A stretch of 64,000 nt of DNA from Flavicella marina. Lineage in GTDB: Bacteria > Bacteroidota > Bacteroidia > Flavobacteriales > Flavobacteriaceae. Within the stretch, counting starts at the first letter, position 1; every line of letters starts with the position of its first letter. The stretch spans positions 124,001-188,000 of the forward strand of contig NZ_VYVA01000005.1 of NCBI RefSeq assembly GCF_009193215.1, read 5' to 3'. The position numbers were made by a program, and so were the translations under genes. The notes under the pieces are model-generated. The model did not search any database and was not told where the DNA came from. It saw only the letters and a list, made by a program, of their open reading frames with translations. Shown here piece after piece: positions 18,764 through 25,934 of this stretch.

Positions 18764-19471
18764 TTATAATAAGGTAAGTTTTGCTAAATAATCGTAATGG
18801 GCTCCTTCTAAAATCAATTCGCATTTGAAGCCGTTGTAAATAGCGCAGCGTTGCAAAGTGTTGTAATCAACATAGAGCCATGGGAATGTGTCACTCACTT
18901 CGTTTTTATACTGCATTTTAAAGTCAACTTCTCCGTAATAATTTAGATTGCTTGGAATCCAATGCTCACCTTGCTCGTCTTCATACATATAAATCAAATC
19001 AGAAGAATCGATAAGAATCTGACCTTTAGGGTTAAGAAGCGATTTTAGGTGTACTAAAAATGGTGCAAGTTTTTCTAATTTTCCACAGATTCCAGTTCCA
19101 TTCATCAAAGCGAGGATCGTATCAAATTTCTGATTTTGAAACTCCCAAATGTTTTTTAAAAGGGTGTTTTTAATACCTCTGTTTTTACAAACTTCTATGG
19201 CACCCTCAGAAATATCAAGAGCTAAAACATCTTTGTTTTTAGTTTGAAGATAAAGTGAATGACTTCCAGATCCCGCACCAAGGTCTAAAATTTTTCCAGT
19301 ACAAAGATGTAATGCGTTTTGTTCTAGTTGTGGCATTTGGTCAAAAGAGCGAAATAAGTAGGCGAGAGGCATAATATCTTCACCAGCGATAGAAGAGTAG
19401 GTAACTAATTCTTCCGTGGTCTGCTGATTTTGATAATCTATCAATGCGTTTCCGTAAACGTCTTTTGACAT
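18764..19471 (-). CDS. Class I SAM-dependent methyltransferase
   Basis: A 235-residue Rossmann-fold methyltransferase. Motif I is ILDLGAGSGSHSLYL near residue 60, followed by DVLALDISEGAIEVCKNRG and FDTILALMNGTGICG. I use the ATG at 19471 (MSKDVYGNALIDYQ); a longer reading from a TTG at 19495 would run through the promoter element at 19484-19491. The substrate is not evident. It is followed 1 base later by the DUF1684 gene and lies 58 bases downstream of the sigma-factor gene with its own promoter. Confidence 0.85.
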   Translation of the reverse strand: MSKDVYGNALIDYQNQQTTEELVTYSSIAGEDIMPLAYLFRSFDQMPQLEQNALHLCTGKILDLGAGSGSHSLYLQTKNKDVLALDISEGAIEVCKNRGIKNTLLKNIWEFQNQKFDTILALMNGTGICGKLEKLAPFLVHLKSLLNPKGQILIDSSDLIYMYEDEQGEHWIPSNLNYYGEVDFKMQYKNEVSDTFPWLYVDYNTLQRCAIYNGFKCELILEGAHYDYLAKLTLL

Positions 19472-19483
19472 GTTTTTTTTGTG

Positions 19484-19491
19484 CAAATTTA
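19484..19491 (-). promoter_or_regulatory. Promoter element (TAAATTTG) of the methyltransferase gene
   Basis: TAAATTTG on the minus strand matches TAnnTTTG, 12 bases before the ATG at 19471. It supports that start and separate transcription from the sigma-factor gene. Confidence 0.5.
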
Positions 19492-19529
19492 GCAAAATAG
19501 CTAAGTAATAGAAATATAATTATGTACTT

Positions 19530-20075
19530 CTATGAATTGCAAACCTTGCAATCTTCTTTGTTCTTATGTGCCCCTTTTAAAAATCCATTTTCATCCAACT
19601 TGTAATCACAGCAATCCATAAATCCTTGTTTGAGTAATTCTCTACCTCGTTGTATTCTAGACTTCGCTGCTGGTAAGCTGATGTTGAGTTGATCAGCGGC
19701 ATATTTTTGTTTGAATCCTTTAACTTCGGTTAAAATAAGTATGTCTTTATATTTTTTCGGAAGTTTTAAAATTAAGGGCACTAAACAATCTGTAGCATCA
19801 TGATGATCTTTTTCAGGATTTTCTAGTCTGATGTTTTTATCAGAATCAGGAAGCACAAGCTCTCTTTTTCTAAAATAATCGAGAATGGTATTGTTGGCTA
19901 TTTGAAAAAGCCATGATTTTAATTTATCTTTTTGTTGCAGTTCGTTTTTATGCAGATGGATTTTAATAAATACTTCTTGTAAAATATCATCAGCGATGGT
20001 TTCATTCTTTACTTTGCTTAGAATAAATTTTTTCAAAGCTGCTGAAAAATCTGAATATATTTTTTCTGTTTGCAT
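19530..20075 (-). CDS. SigZ-like ECF-type RNA polymerase sigma factor with Cys-rich tail
   Basis: A 181-residue group 4 sigma factor. Region 2 contains DDILQEVFIKIH and LKSWLFQIANNTILDYFRKRE (about 29-72). Region 4 contains KLPKKYKDILILTEVKGFKQ and an HTH IAAD-type segment ending LPAAKSRIQRGRELLK (about 104-149). A C-terminal tail (150-181) carries Cys155, Cys156, Cys176 and Cys179, the last two as CKVC; a single Cys97 and two His (91, 92) lie in the linker. The layout resembles SigZ-type factors. No anti-sigma gene is adjacent; instead a Cys-rich mini-ORF precedes it by 51 bases. Metal or redox sensing by the tail is my inference. Confidence 0.85.
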   Translation of the reverse strand: MQTEKIYSDFSAALKKFILSKVKNETIADDILQEVFIKIHLHKNELQQKDKLKSWLFQIANNTILDYFRKRELVLPDSDKNIRLENPEKDHHDATDCLVPLILKLPKKYKDILILTEVKGFKQKYAADQLNISLPAAKSRIQRGRELLKQGFMDCCDYKLDENGFLKGAHKNKEDCKVCNS

Positions 20076-20088
20076 TACTTGAAATTAA

Positions 20089-20120
20089 TTCCTTCTCCAT
20101 AATTGACTACAGAGAAGGAA
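20089..20120 (-). other. Intergenic hairpin between the Cys-rich ORF and the sigma-factor gene
   Basis: A perfect 9-bp inverted repeat (GAGAAGGAA at 20112-20120 against TTCCTTCTC at 20089-20097) with a 14-base loop. No T-run follows in the direction of transcription, so it looks like an RNA stabiliser or partial attenuator, not a full terminator. Confidence 0.5.
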
Positions 20121-20126
20121 AGTTGA

Positions 20127-20228
20127 TTAACAATTGCAATTTGTGCAGGTACAAGATTCACAAGTACAGTTTGCACATTGTCCGTTTTTACATGCGTCAC
20201 AATTGCATGTACAGTTTGTATTTTTCAT
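20127..20228 (-). CDS. Metallothionein-like cysteine-rich mini-protein (33 aa)
   Basis: A hand-translated ORF of 33 codons plus TAA, starting at an ATG (20226-20228). Eleven of 33 residues are cysteine (positions 6, 8, 10, 13, 18, 21, 23, 26, 28, 31, 33). They are arranged as repeated CxC and CxxC units such as CTCNC, CTCESC and CTCTNCNC, separated by Asn, Thr, Asp, Glu and Lys. There are no aromatic residues and no signal peptide. This composition is what metallothioneins show, so cytoplasmic binding of Zn, Cu or Cd is plausible, but I cannot assign a known family. A promoter-like pair (TTG, 20 bases, TAACTTTA) precedes it. It is co-oriented with the sigma-factor gene 51 bases downstream. 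Confidence 0.65.
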   Translation of the reverse strand: MKNTNCTCNCDACKNGQCANCTCESCTCTNCNC

Positions 20229-20247
20229 AATTGCATTATTTAATAGT

Positions 20248-20255
20248 TAAAGTTA
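20248..20255 (-). promoter_or_regulatory. Probable promoter (TAACTTTA) of the Cys-rich ORF / sigma operon
   Basis: TAACTTTA on the minus strand matches 7 of the 8 positions of TAnnTTTG. A TTG at 20276-20278 lies 20 bases upstream. The start codon of the Cys-rich ORF is 19 bases downstream. Confidence 0.45.
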
Positions 20256-20338
20256 CTCATAAGACGCAGTAAAGTCAAAAAAGATGCAAAATTCATTGAA
20301 ATATTTTCTAAAATATTCTTTTGAAGCTCTAGAAGCAC

Positions 20339-20346
20339 TACTTTTG
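20339..20346 (+). promoter_or_regulatory. Promoter element (TACTTTTG) of the DUF5522 gene
   Basis: TACTTTTG matches TAnnTTTG exactly and lies 20 bases before the ATG at 20367. Confidence 0.55.
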
Positions 20347-20366
20347 CTTTGCTTAAGAAAAATAAG

Positions 20367-20525
20367 ATGAATTTACCAACACTTGAAGAAGGAGATTTTT
20401 ATTGGAATGAAGAAGGTTATAGAGTATTTACAGAGCAGTATCACCTAAAAAGAGGGTATTGTTGTAAAAGTGGTTGTAAACATTGCCCTTATAACTATGA
20501 TAAAAAAACAGATTCGTTTAAATAA
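20367..20525 (+). CDS. DUF5522 small Cys-motif protein (52 aa)
   Basis: A 52-residue ORF read by hand. It starts MNLPTLEEGDFYWNEEGYRV and carries HLKRGYCCKSGCKHCPY, with cysteines 32, 33, 37 and 40 in a CC-x3-C-x2-C pattern followed by Pro-Tyr. This matches the short DUF5522 family common in Bacteroidota, whose function is unknown; the Cys cluster suggests metal binding. An exact promoter element precedes it and the ATG is the only sensible start. It is divergent from the metallothionein-like ORF, sharing a 138-base intergenic region with it. Confidence 0.8.
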   Translation: MNLPTLEEGDFYWNEEGYRVFTEQYHLKRGYCCKSGCKHCPYNYDKKTDSFK

Positions 20526-20559
20526 ATTATTGTTTTCTTTAATTGATGAAGTTTGAATT

Positions 20560-20693
20560 GAGACTTCGACAAGCTCAGTCTCCAAACTAAACTTTTGTTG
20601 TTTTGATTGGTAAAATGAGTTCTCTTTTTTTATAGCGGAATGCGACTCTGACAAGCTCAGTCTCCAATCTGAACCCTGAGCCTGTCGAAGGGT
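20560..20693. repeat. Cluster of REP-like GACAAGCTCAG elements
   Basis: The 18-mer GACAAGCTCAGTCTCCAA occurs exactly at 20568-20585 and again at 20650-20667. A third, inverted copy CCTGAGCCTGTCGAAGGG is at 20675-20692. The first copy is embedded in an inverted repeat (GAGACT 20560-20565, AGTCTC 20577-20582). Related intergenic elements with a TTCGACA-GCTCAG core recur in many Bacteroidota genomes. No coding capacity. Confidence 0.75.
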
Positions 20694-20711
20694 GAATACT
20701 TTAATGAGTTT

Positions 20712-22736: not shown

Positions 22737-23485
<749 letters not shown>

Positions 23486-23525: not shown

Positions 23526-25934
23526 TTAAGATTTTGACTTGAATGAATATCTAAGTGTGAATAAAAAGTTTCTTCCAGGTTCATCTGCGAAATATCTCAT
23601 TTCGTTTAGGTAATCTCTATATGCAGTATTGAATACATTTTGTACCGTGATACTTGCATTCACATTTTTTATTTGAATTCTCCAAGCTACATCCATCAAA
23701 AAGTAACCTTCAGGAGCAGCTTTGAAATCAAAAATTTCTGATTCTGGAGTGATGATAACCGAGCCGTCGATCAAATCTTCTGGAGGAATCGTTCTCGGAG
23801 CTTGGTACTGTTGAAACGTATAACTGGGTCTTATAGAAATAGTTGAAGTATCAAACTTCCAAACGTTCTTTTTCGTCCAAGTTACTTGATAATTTGTGGT
23901 AACCGGAGGCTGATTGATCAACGGTTCGTTTTTTTCTATGTTTTTCGACCACAAATAACTAAACCCGAACAAACCAGCTATTTGCTTCGACCATTGTTTT
24001 TTCCAACTAAAATCAGTTCCTAAAAACACCGCGTTCGATTGATCGTATATAAAAGCAGGCATAGGCCCTCTAATTGTCCCGAGTACAGCCAATGGTCTGT
24101 TGTAGATGAAATTTTCTATATAATGACCATAAACAGTTGCTTTAACCGTATTATCTTTATTTTGATGTTGCCATTCATTGATGAATTTGTACCCTTTTTC
24201 AGGTTTTACAGAACTGTCTTCCATTTTAATAACTTTGTCAGTCTTTAATTCACCATCACTATTTACATAGTATCTCAATAATCCATAAGTAGTTTTAAAT
24301 CCATGTTGTCCAAAACCATAAAGTTCGATCATATTTGGAGTTCTCCATGCAGCACCGAGATTCGATCTGAATGTTGTTTTTTCAGAAACTTCTCTAACAA
24401 CCCCTAAGCTAAATGTAATATTGTTGAATTGATATTGGTCTCTATAGATGTTTTGATTTGTTTCTCTTCCTCTTACATCGTTGCTTACAAAATCGATTCG
24501 GCTACCAAACTCAAAAGTGTTTTTGTCGAATGTTTTACTTTCTACAATAAATGCGCTAAAACTGTGTGTATTGTAATTAGGAATCAAAGGTGTTGTTCCG
24601 GTTCCTGGGTTGTTGTCGTTATCTTGATTGAAAAACTGCACTCCGATCAATCCATCAAGTTTATACCAATCAGGATGATTCCATTCTAGTTGATAATCCT
24701 GCGTAATTAAATCTAGATCAATAATCGGTTTGTCTGAATTTCGTCTTACATCGAATTCTTGCCTTTTGTTGAGTTGTGTTCCTGATTTAAAAGTGATTTT
24801 TCCGTTATCGGCATACCACCAATCCATCTTCAATTTTAAAAAATGATGATCTGTTTTTTGGTTAGGCGCATTTATGTCGTATGAAAAAGGAGTAATGAAT
24901 AATGGTTTGTCAGAATTGATTGCATTTACAAAGGCGTTTCCACTGTCTGCAATAGACGACCTTAGCAAAGCTAAATTTTGATTGACATAGCTATAATGTG
25001 CTTTTACATCGATGCTTTTATGTTGGTACCTGGTACCGAATCCGAAATATTTTTCTTCTTTACCAGTATTTGTCAAACTGTAATCAGGACTATGTAAATC
25101 TCCAATCTTGGTGAAATTTCCATTGATGAAATAACTCCATTTTTCAAAACCAATACCCGATTCGATATTCGTAAAGATACCCTTTCCGTTGGTTTGATAT
25201 CCTGTTTCTACACTTGCGTATAAAGGTTCGTTAAGGTACAAAGGATTTGGCTCTACGATGATGGTACCGGCTAAAGCTTCTGGTCCGTATCTTACTCCCG
25301 AGGCACCTTTTATAATAGTGATATTGTGTGCCGAACTCAATGAAATTTCTGGAGCATGATCTGTACCCCAATTCTGAAAACCATGTTTAATTTCGTTGTT
25401 TAAAACAAGGATTCTATTTCCATACAATCCGTGGATGATTGGCAATTGATTGTTCGAACCTGTTGAAACGAAGGAAATACCTTCTGTTTGAGATAGTAAA
25501 GATGCCAATGTTTGGGTTGGGTTGTTCTTTATTTCTTCTAGTTCTATAGTGCTTTTAGAAACTGTTTTTACACCTTCTTCAATTCTTTTTTTTGCGTGTA
25601 TTGTTACATCTTTCAGTTCCAACACGTCTTGCTTCAAATAAATATGTGGTGATTTTCCATGTTGATGGTAATCTTCACAGACAGAGTCGCAATACCCAAA
25701 GCACGAAGCAATAATTGTGTTATTGTTTGTGCACAAACCATTAATGATAAAGTTACCATTCAAATCAGTCGTGGTGTATTTCTCTGAACCCATAATTTTA
25801 ATCGTAACATAGGGTATTGGTTCTTTTGTTTCGATGTCGAGTATTGTTCCTGAAACAGAGTGCTCACATGAGTCTGACTGAGCCCAAGTAACACAGTTAA
25901 AAAATAAGATTAAAAGTATAGATAAAAACCTCAT
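23526..25934 (-). CDS. TonB-dependent receptor with Cys/His-rich N-terminal domain (putative metal receptor)
   Basis: An 802-residue outer-membrane receptor. A signal peptide ends at WAQ (19). A CarboxypepD_reg-like beta-sandwich follows (about 27-100; GTILDIETKEPIPYVTI, TTDLNGNFIINGL), then a plug with LLSQTEGISFVSTGSN, IHGLYGNRILVLNN and GASGVRYGPEALAGTI. The barrel ends in a Phe-rich strand (NFLFTLRYSF). The N-terminal domain carries unusual ligands: Cys23, His25, Cys68, Cys78, Cys82, Cys86, His90, His92, His97. With the MerC and Fur-family neighbours this suggests zinc or another transition metal as substrate. The ATG overlaps the MerC stop by 4 bases. Confidence 0.85.
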   Translation of the reverse strand: MRFLSILLILFFNCVTWAQSDSCEHSVSGTILDIETKEPIPYVTIKIMGSEKYTTTDLNGNFIINGLCTNNNTIIASCFGYCDSVCEDYHQHGKSPHIYLKQDVLELKDVTIHAKKRIEEGVKTVSKSTIELEEIKNNPTQTLASLLSQTEGISFVSTGSNNQLPIIHGLYGNRILVLNNEIKHGFQNWGTDHAPEISLSSAHNITIIKGASGVRYGPEALAGTIIVEPNPLYLNEPLYASVETGYQTNGKGIFTNIESGIGFEKWSYFINGNFTKIGDLHSPDYSLTNTGKEEKYFGFGTRYQHKSIDVKAHYSYVNQNLALLRSSIADSGNAFVNAINSDKPLFITPFSYDINAPNQKTDHHFLKLKMDWWYADNGKITFKSGTQLNKRQEFDVRRNSDKPIIDLDLITQDYQLEWNHPDWYKLDGLIGVQFFNQDNDNNPGTGTTPLIPNYNTHSFSAFIVESKTFDKNTFEFGSRIDFVSNDVRGRETNQNIYRDQYQFNNITFSLGVVREVSEKTTFRSNLGAAWRTPNMIELYGFGQHGFKTTYGLLRYYVNSDGELKTDKVIKMEDSSVKPEKGYKFINEWQHQNKDNTVKATVYGHYIENFIYNRPLAVLGTIRGPMPAFIYDQSNAVFLGTDFSWKKQWSKQIAGLFGFSYLWSKNIEKNEPLINQPPVTTNYQVTWTKKNVWKFDTSTISIRPSYTFQQYQAPRTIPPEDLIDGSVIITPESEIFDFKAAPEGYFLMDVAWRIQIKNVNASITVQNVFNTAYRDYLNEMRYFADEPGRNFLFTLRYSFKSKS

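Follow-up and report, generated by a model that had tools for sequence, protein, structure and literature searches.

The bacterial metallothioneins treated in the accessible portions of two papers are controlled by repressors, SmtB (PMC7387436) and RicR (PMC10141476), and the ArsR-type repressor AzuR and the activator CadR are further regulators named in the literature excerpts retrieved. As to sigma factors, CorE and CorE2 of Myxococcus, which respond to Cu or to Cd/Zn, bear a Cys-rich C-terminal extension and a CxC motif in the linker (PMC8999054, available in part). Regulation of CorE is ascribed, in the same partial text, to the C-terminal Cys extension together with the linker Cys (PMC8999054). 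Among the literature matches listed, all of them available as partial text only, no metallothionein of Bacteroidota was described, none was placed under a sigma factor (matches for metallothionein plus ECF sigma), and neither a ligand nor a regulon of SigZ was named. No work linking a metallothionein with SigZ was found either, subscription papers and preprints being outside the search.

The locus described here lies in a window of 64,000 nucleotides, i.e. the whole stretch of DNA that was analysed. We read it as a two-gene metal-detoxification operon, composed of a new metallothionein of 33 amino acids with 11 Cys and of an ECF sigma factor driving it, and we assign to this reading a probability of roughly 0.78, both metal binding by the peptide and metal sensing by the sigma factor being inferred. 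The features of the locus are collected in Table 1.

Table 1. Features of the peptide-sigma locus and their positions in the window.
Feature	Position	Strand	Remarks
Metallothionein-like peptide gene, type A	20127..20228	(-)	33 aa, pattern CxCxCxxCxxxxCxxCxCxxCxCxxCxC
ECF-type promoter GCATCTTTTTTGACTTTACTGCGTCTTAT	20259..20287	(-)	motif common to sigma-linked loci
-35-like GCATCTTTTT	20278-20287	(-)	then N11
-10-like CGTCTTAT	20259-20266	(-)	CGTC starts 38 nt before ATG
Stem-loop, 13-bp stem	20089..20120	(-)	between peptide gene and sigma gene
SigZ-type ECF sigma factor, 181 aa	19530..20075	(-)	TIGR02959 match, tree, fold
Cys97 codon, sigma2-sigma4 linker	19785..19787	(-)	conserved
C-terminal Cys tail CC-x19-C-x2-C (Cys155, 156, 176, 179)	19539..19613	(-)	proposed metal sensor
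Class I SAM methyltransferase	18764..19471	(-)	after sigZ, local addition

The product of the peptide ORF, MKNTNCTCNCDACKNGQCANCTCESCTCTNCNC followed by a stop, has no aromatic residue and no His, and is almost devoid of hydrophobic residues. It meets the criteria of the metallothionein class, namely short length, about one-third Cys, CxC/CxxC arrays and few or no aromatics (an aromatic residue is present in 8 of 72 relatives). No other ATG ORF of 25–60 aa in the whole window reaches 20% Cys, and a single copy of this one exists in the genome (3.16 Mb). In 40 Markov-simulated windows (2.56 Mb) no ORF with 30% Cys or more was encountered, the maximum being 27%. The original prediction had proposed a 33-residue ORF with 11 Cys and no aromatic residue, without giving its strand, preceded by a promoter-like sequence and followed by a hairpin and a sigma factor; each of these elements was recovered, on the minus strand, the promoter being of ECF type and the sigma factor of SigZ type. 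Two aspects had escaped it, that is the restriction of the promoter to sigma-linked copies of the peptide gene and the conserved Cys of the sigma factor itself.

The peptide, hereafter termed type A, matches none of the metallothionein models in Pfam and NCBIfam, nor any PDB chain. When 25 type-A members were compared with PF02069 none matched, the sole listed match being M20_dimer (E 0.21, one member); PF02069 gave no match in the own genome, and the control matched in 4 of 14 named genomes, above the cut-off in one. A caveat applies to these profile negatives, as HMMER composition filters can hide Cys-rich matches. As far as Pfam, NCBIfam and PDB reach, the earlier statement that no flavobacterial metallothionein with such a pattern had been described is borne out, and the metallothionein reading is supported by the sequence evidence, with metal binding remaining an inference.

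Of 397 genomes of the family, 70 (among them the own genome) gave a match in a profile search for the type-A peptide, a few of the matches being weak or broken (a 14-residue piece in G265, frameshifts in G126 and G215, a TGA in G353). In a search of 60 relatives it was present in four of five congeners and in one other genus; a weak match from another family (G055, E 0.08) was dismissed, as no Cys-rich ORF is found there. Outside the family sample, positives numbered 3 among 295 genomes of the class and 4 among 148 of the order, every one of them belonging to the same family: type A is confined to Flavobacteriaceae in the samples searched. Plasmids gave no match, with the reservation that the low-complexity filter may hide some.

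The set of 72 loci considered below consists of the profile matches plus two further loci, minus L011, whose sequence is identical to that of L081; the peptide alignment A2 includes 25 of the 72 peptides. The exact Cys spacing is kept in 64 of the 72 loci, and both TGT and TGC occur at all 11 Cys positions (66 peptides with 11 Cys). The gene is under purifying selection, with a median dN/dS of 0.19 in 49 usable out of 136 pairs from 17 loci, usable pairs being those with dS between 0 and 1.5. This Ka/Ks comparison had been suggested by the original prediction, which had also named what would refute it, i.e. the lack of a homologous ORF, or of conserved Cys, upstream of SigZ-like genes in relatives; it passed on these points, since relatives do have the ORF, with conserved Cys, directly upstream of a SigZ-like gene. 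An ORF this short could in principle be a chance or decaying frame, or part of a regulatory RNA, and a few relatives are indeed decayed (L051, L075, L078). Such an explanation can be regarded as practically ruled out by the identical spacing, the free TGT/TGC exchange, the dN/dS value and the absence of any such ORF from the simulated windows, as well as by the lack of Rfam elements at E 1 or better within 19400-20700.

In one of the decayed loci, L051 (genome G115), three Cys of the peptide are replaced by Tyr/Phe, the promoter motif is degraded and the sigma gene is absent; this is a state of decay following the loss of the regulator.

The window sigma factor satisfies the TIGR02959 (SigZ) criterion, with 176.6 bits at a cut-off of 168.65, and remains below the cut-off of NF007215, the PRK09637 SigZ model (190 vs 212). 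Its predicted fold matches ECF sigma factors, the arrangement of the domains being uncertain in the AlphaFold model (pTM 0.49). A sigma gene of this kind is located directly after the peptide gene in 54 of the 72 loci, a weak sigma match at L073 (E 6e-4) being excluded from the counts. At the genome level, the type-A sigma clade was found in 52 of the 397 genomes, in all 52 with the peptide beside it (Fisher p = 4e-50 for co-occurrence). The best-scoring sigmas, from 50 genomes at about E 1e-45 plus G084 and the truncated G074, all adjoin a peptide gene, and in G215 peptide gene and sigma gene are both broken. The 18 other peptide-bearing genomes, in each of which no more than 8 candidates were scored, gave no sigma match at E 1e-25.

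When 107 sigmas were placed in a tree, all 52 peptide-linked sequences fell on one side of a branch with support 98/93, which was recovered in 100% of 200 bootstrap trees. The tree is midpoint-rooted only and includes 52 of the 54 type-A sigmas (L009 is absent, L075 too short); of the sigma places outside the type-A clade 55 of 59 were fetched, G254, G312, G077 and G414, each with an internal stop, being left out. In 30 loci the gene following sigZ runs opposite to it, in 23 it shares its strand and in one it was not seen; thus the conserved unit consists of two genes. The methyltransferase that follows sigZ in the window was rejected as a member of the core unit, because it occurs in only 6 of 73 surveyed loci.

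Divergently from the operon, a small Cys-containing DUF5522 protein is encoded (20349-20525, plus strand), a relative of which recurs by other operons (cluster 17, 7 loci). Elsewhere in the window, the gene at 22811-23485 (minus strand) codes for a protein having a lipoprotein-like N-terminus, a His/Glu-rich stretch, EEHEEEEHGHSHG, and no Pfam match; it adjoins the gene for a TonB-dependent receptor (23526-25934, minus strand), and the two proteins possibly form a metal-uptake pair.

The motif GCATCTTTTT-N11-CGTCT, with at most two changed bases, was found at all 54 sigma-linked peptide genes (0, 1 and 2 changes in 35, 17 and 2 loci, respectively) and at none of the 18 sigma-less ones. The distance from GCATC to CGTC is exactly 21 nt in all 54 sigma-linked loci, and the -10 box begins 30–39 nt ahead of the ATG in 51 of them. 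It should be noted that the pattern was defined after inspection of the loci. A PWM scan covering 53 of the 54 loci (L009 absent) gave the peptide site as top site in 52; in L089 the top site is ahead of a DUF3703 gene, and the pattern search finds the peptide site there too. Sigma-less copies come mostly from small genomes (median 1.9 Mb). A looser TAnnTTT[AG] box precedes 14 of these 18 copies vs 10 of the 54 sigma-linked ones, and the strict TAnnTTTG, the flavobacterial housekeeping box according to the available part of PMC9723704, precedes one sigma-less copy and no sigma-linked copy. The presence of the motif at all sigma-linked copies and its absence from all sigma-less ones indicate that the sigma factor very probably drives its own operon. 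The criterion for an autoregulated ECF factor, a sigma-specific promoter ahead of its own operon, is met by co-occurrence only, there being no mapped start, and use of the promoter by the sigma factor is inferred.

Within the own genome, the pattern GCATCTTTTT-N11-CGTCTNAT has a single zero-mismatch site, the one of the peptide operon, and the other sites carry 2–3 mismatches. A wide regulon is unsupported in this genome, with 19 sites in all vs 17 for the reversed-pattern control. When a longer pattern was searched in the 397 genomes, for which the site of the window itself scores one mismatch, all 29 zero-mismatch sites were found just upstream of a peptide gene (coordinates compared by eye). 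The one-mismatch sites were 26, 18 at a peptide gene and 8 elsewhere, the latter including one at a type-B operon (see below), one before the DUF3703 gene of G336, two before rpiB (by eye) and two without an obvious gene. Two-mismatch sites were not read as a regulon, since many are located elsewhere in the 397 genomes and the reversed pattern yields them too.

In genome G336, the DUF3703 gene (L089:4572-4950) has a SigZ-type promoter of its own and lies directly upstream of the peptide-sigma operon. DUF3703 is a family that occurs in metal-resistance loci.

Between the two genes, the stem-loop of the window has a predicted energy of -16.4 kcal/mol (z -3.85), and none of 200 shuffles was as stable. 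Folding of the 80 nt following the peptide stop gives a mean of -17.0 kcal/mol, where dinucleotide shuffles average -6.4 and control stretches taken upstream -6.2; in 47 of the 54 loci the energy is below that of all 20 dinucleotide shuffles. The stem sequences vary among loci. A clear T run is absent after many of the hairpins (by eye), so that termination is unproven. The hairpin is likely to act as a partial terminator or as a 3' stabiliser, giving more peptide than sigma factor, a role that is inferred.

The window sigma factor (P0003) contains five Cys in all, and each of them is conserved. Of the 53 type-A sigmas, 52 retain Cys97, as do all 23 members of a second clade; Cys155, 156, 176 and 179 are each kept in 51 of 53 and in 22–23 of 23, respectively. 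The type-A exceptions correspond to a contig end (L053) and to a frameshift (L075), and these two sequences are not part of the sigma alignment A4, which includes 51 of 76 sequences. In the AlphaFold model, the last sigma4 helix ends at Cys155/156 and the tail is ordered (mean pLDDT 77–89 by blocks). By analogy with known Cys-bearing sigma factors, a probable role of the window sigma factor is to detect metal and to activate both genes, the response to metal being inferred.

In the mechanism we propose, an excess of thiophilic ions, Cu(I), Cd(II), Zn(II) or As(III), would be bound by Cys97 together with Cys155/156/176/179, turning the sigma factor on. The activated factor would then bring RNA polymerase to GCATCTTTTT-N11-CGTCT ahead of the peptide gene, and the intergenic stem-loop would cause more peptide than sigma factor to be made. 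The peptide may wrap the ions in a metal-thiolate cluster, lowering free metal and switching the loop off. Eleven Cys would suit a cluster of the M4Cys11 type.

In the second sigma clade, 22 of 23 members are preceded by a different peptide of 36–41 aa, here termed type B. All 22 type-B peptides have 14 Cys, with identical spacing in 21, and none is matched by any Pfam or NCBIfam model. In 19 of the 22 loci they are preceded by a promoter related to that of type A, mostly of the form GTATCYTTTT-N11-NGTCT. None of the 22 type-B genomes holds type A as well (hypergeometric p = 0.012), a mutual exclusion that is expected if both do the same job. The type-B profile also retrieved 3 of 295 class genomes, from two other families, and no sigma gene was recognised alongside in these short loci. 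Both types are short enough to escape common gene-length cut-offs.

A 59-aa ORF that resembles neither type A nor type B and encodes 15 Cys was observed in L185 (G060), upstream of a SigZ-like gene with a Cys tail. It is possibly a third kind of peptide; no promoter motif was found for L185.

The tight pairing of the peptide with one sigma clade under a shared promoter could also be expected if the peptide served mainly to regulate rather than to store metal, inhibiting the sigma factor in response to metal or redox state as a soluble substitute for a zinc-binding anti-sigma factor. Consistent with this, 53 of 54 copies with sigma preserve the exact Cys pattern, compared with only 11 of 18 without it, a weaker constraint that points to coupling of the peptide to the sigma factor. 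Nevertheless, the same 11 copies retain the pattern in genomes lacking a sigma match at the threshold given above, thus indicating a function of the peptide's own, and a quite different 14-Cys peptide occupies the same place in the second clade. Moreover, hardly any hydrophobic residues are available in the peptide for gripping a sigma factor, and sigma factors with a Cys extension of their own are regulated by that extension, as described for CorE in the available part of PMC8999054. A mainly regulatory peptide is therefore considered unlikely, and a metal-binding one preferred.

Other SigZ relatives give indications on the metal. Out of 33 other second-tier loci, 18 show a PWM site scoring at least 12 towards the sigma gene's end or beyond it (no background was computed), and the genes behind such sites code for ArsM (L149, L174), ArsI/CadI, PhzF-family isomerases, an FAD oxidoreductase and others. 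Three ArsM proteins encoded after sigma relatives score above the NCBIfam cut-off, as does the ArsI/CadI protein of L151, that of L136 being just below. A similar motif, one base shorter, was seen by eye in L147 (ArsM, above cut-off) and L153. On another branch, an ArsP_1 permease and an ArsE-like thioredoxin (below cut-off) follow the sigma gene, with a weak site in L148 only. On plasmids, arsC and ACR3 lie about 2 kb from SigZ in Hymenobacter, SigZ is followed by a thioredoxin and a permease in Arenibacter, and a MerR-family gene lies about 3 kb from SigZ in Vibrio; no obvious metal gene adjoins SigZ on the Priestia and Vibrio plasmids.

Peptides of 42–46 aa ending in FGAYRRFC or FGAHRRYC occur after a SigZ-type promoter in L139 and L174, in the latter ahead of arsM. 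In L134, L135, L137, L138, L146, L163 and L166, a PhzF-family gene with a SigZ-type promoter is found just after the sigma gene (family models were applied to L134 only). The PhzF-linked sigmas do not have the full Cys tail, most of its Cys being lost, which indicates that the SigZ family is not only about metal.

Sigma relatives are found near thioredoxin-like, PIG-L and PhzF-family genes too, a setting compatible with a thiol/redox stress response in which the peptide would be a thiol buffer and the sigma Cys an oxidation switch instead of a metal site; metallothioneins are also reported to scavenge oxidants in the accessible part of PMC7387436. This interpretation appears very unlikely to us, as other sigma relatives precede arsM, arsI/cadI and arsP-like genes and a DUF3703 gene has the same promoter in one genome. 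In addition, CxC/CxxC spacing is typical of metal-thiolate clusters. For the metal-binding peptide, the arsenic genes near sigma relatives are a hint to As(III) or Cd(II) as candidate metals, the identity of the metal being inferred. A ligand set consisting entirely of thiolates is suited to Cu(I) and Cd(II).

The locus is best read as an operon that senses metal, is autoregulated by its sigma factor and encodes a new family of metallothioneins, with metal binding inferred. A more far-reaching and doubtful proposal, which we advance only tentatively, is that of a closed metal thermostat. The metallothionein would be the off-switch, in that ligand exchange with the Cys tail would let it strip SigZ directly of metal. 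Cys-rich peptides unrelated to each other (type A with 11 Cys, type B with 14, perhaps the 15-Cys one of L185) would have been taken up by SigZ lineages at least twice into one promoter-peptide-hairpin-sigma layout. Small unannotated metallothioneins would then be a general, overlooked output of metal-sensing sigmas in Bacteroidota.

If the operon works as proposed, it would represent a new mode of control, a bacterial metallothionein switched on by its own sigma factor, and this branch of SigZ would be given an output and a promoter, along with a ligand that can be tested. The two new peptide families would fill the metallothionein gap of Bacteroidota. Promoter and Cys signatures can be used by others to find more such peptides, and the peptide-sigma cassette could become a compact metal biosensor.

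Among known metallothioneins, the alpha domain of the animal proteins holds an M4Cys11 cluster, with 11 Cys in about 30 residues arranged in CxC/CxxC arrays. There is no detectable sequence match between this domain and the window peptide, and the shared Cys count may be due to convergence. With SmtA/BmtA (PF02069), the peptide shares the small size, the Cys richness and the CxC/CxxC units, and SmtA is likewise linked to a metal regulator, the divergent repressor SmtB, according to the partial text of PMC7387436. In contrast to them, the window peptide has no PF02069 match, is 33 aa long and adjoins a sigma factor, not a repressor; it also has no His, whereas the Pseudomonas member of PF02069 uses Cys9His clusters (PMC7387436, same portion). 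MymT, the RicR-controlled copper metallothionein of Mycobacterium, is similarly a short, Cys-rich bacterial peptide in a metal regulon, but it belongs to another phylum and depends on a CsoR-type repressor, as far as the available text of PMC10141476 goes, and the window peptide gave no profile match.

On the side of the regulator, the closest system is that of CorE/CorE2 (ECF238, former ECF44), which, in the part of the literature available, combine a Cys-bearing C-terminal extension with Cys in the sigma2-sigma4 linker, as the window sigma factor does. The CorE-like criterion of a Cys-rich C-terminal extension is met by the four conserved tail Cys, in a short tail. The CxC linker ascribed to CorE in the same partial sources is lacking: a single Cys stands there in the type-A sigmas, and CC in those linked to type B. 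CorE activates, moreover, a multicopper oxidase and a copper ATPase gene and not a metallothionein, as stated in the accessible part of PMC10141476. Given a layout like that of CorE and a different linker signature, the window sigma factor is not classed as CorE and is rather regarded as working like it.
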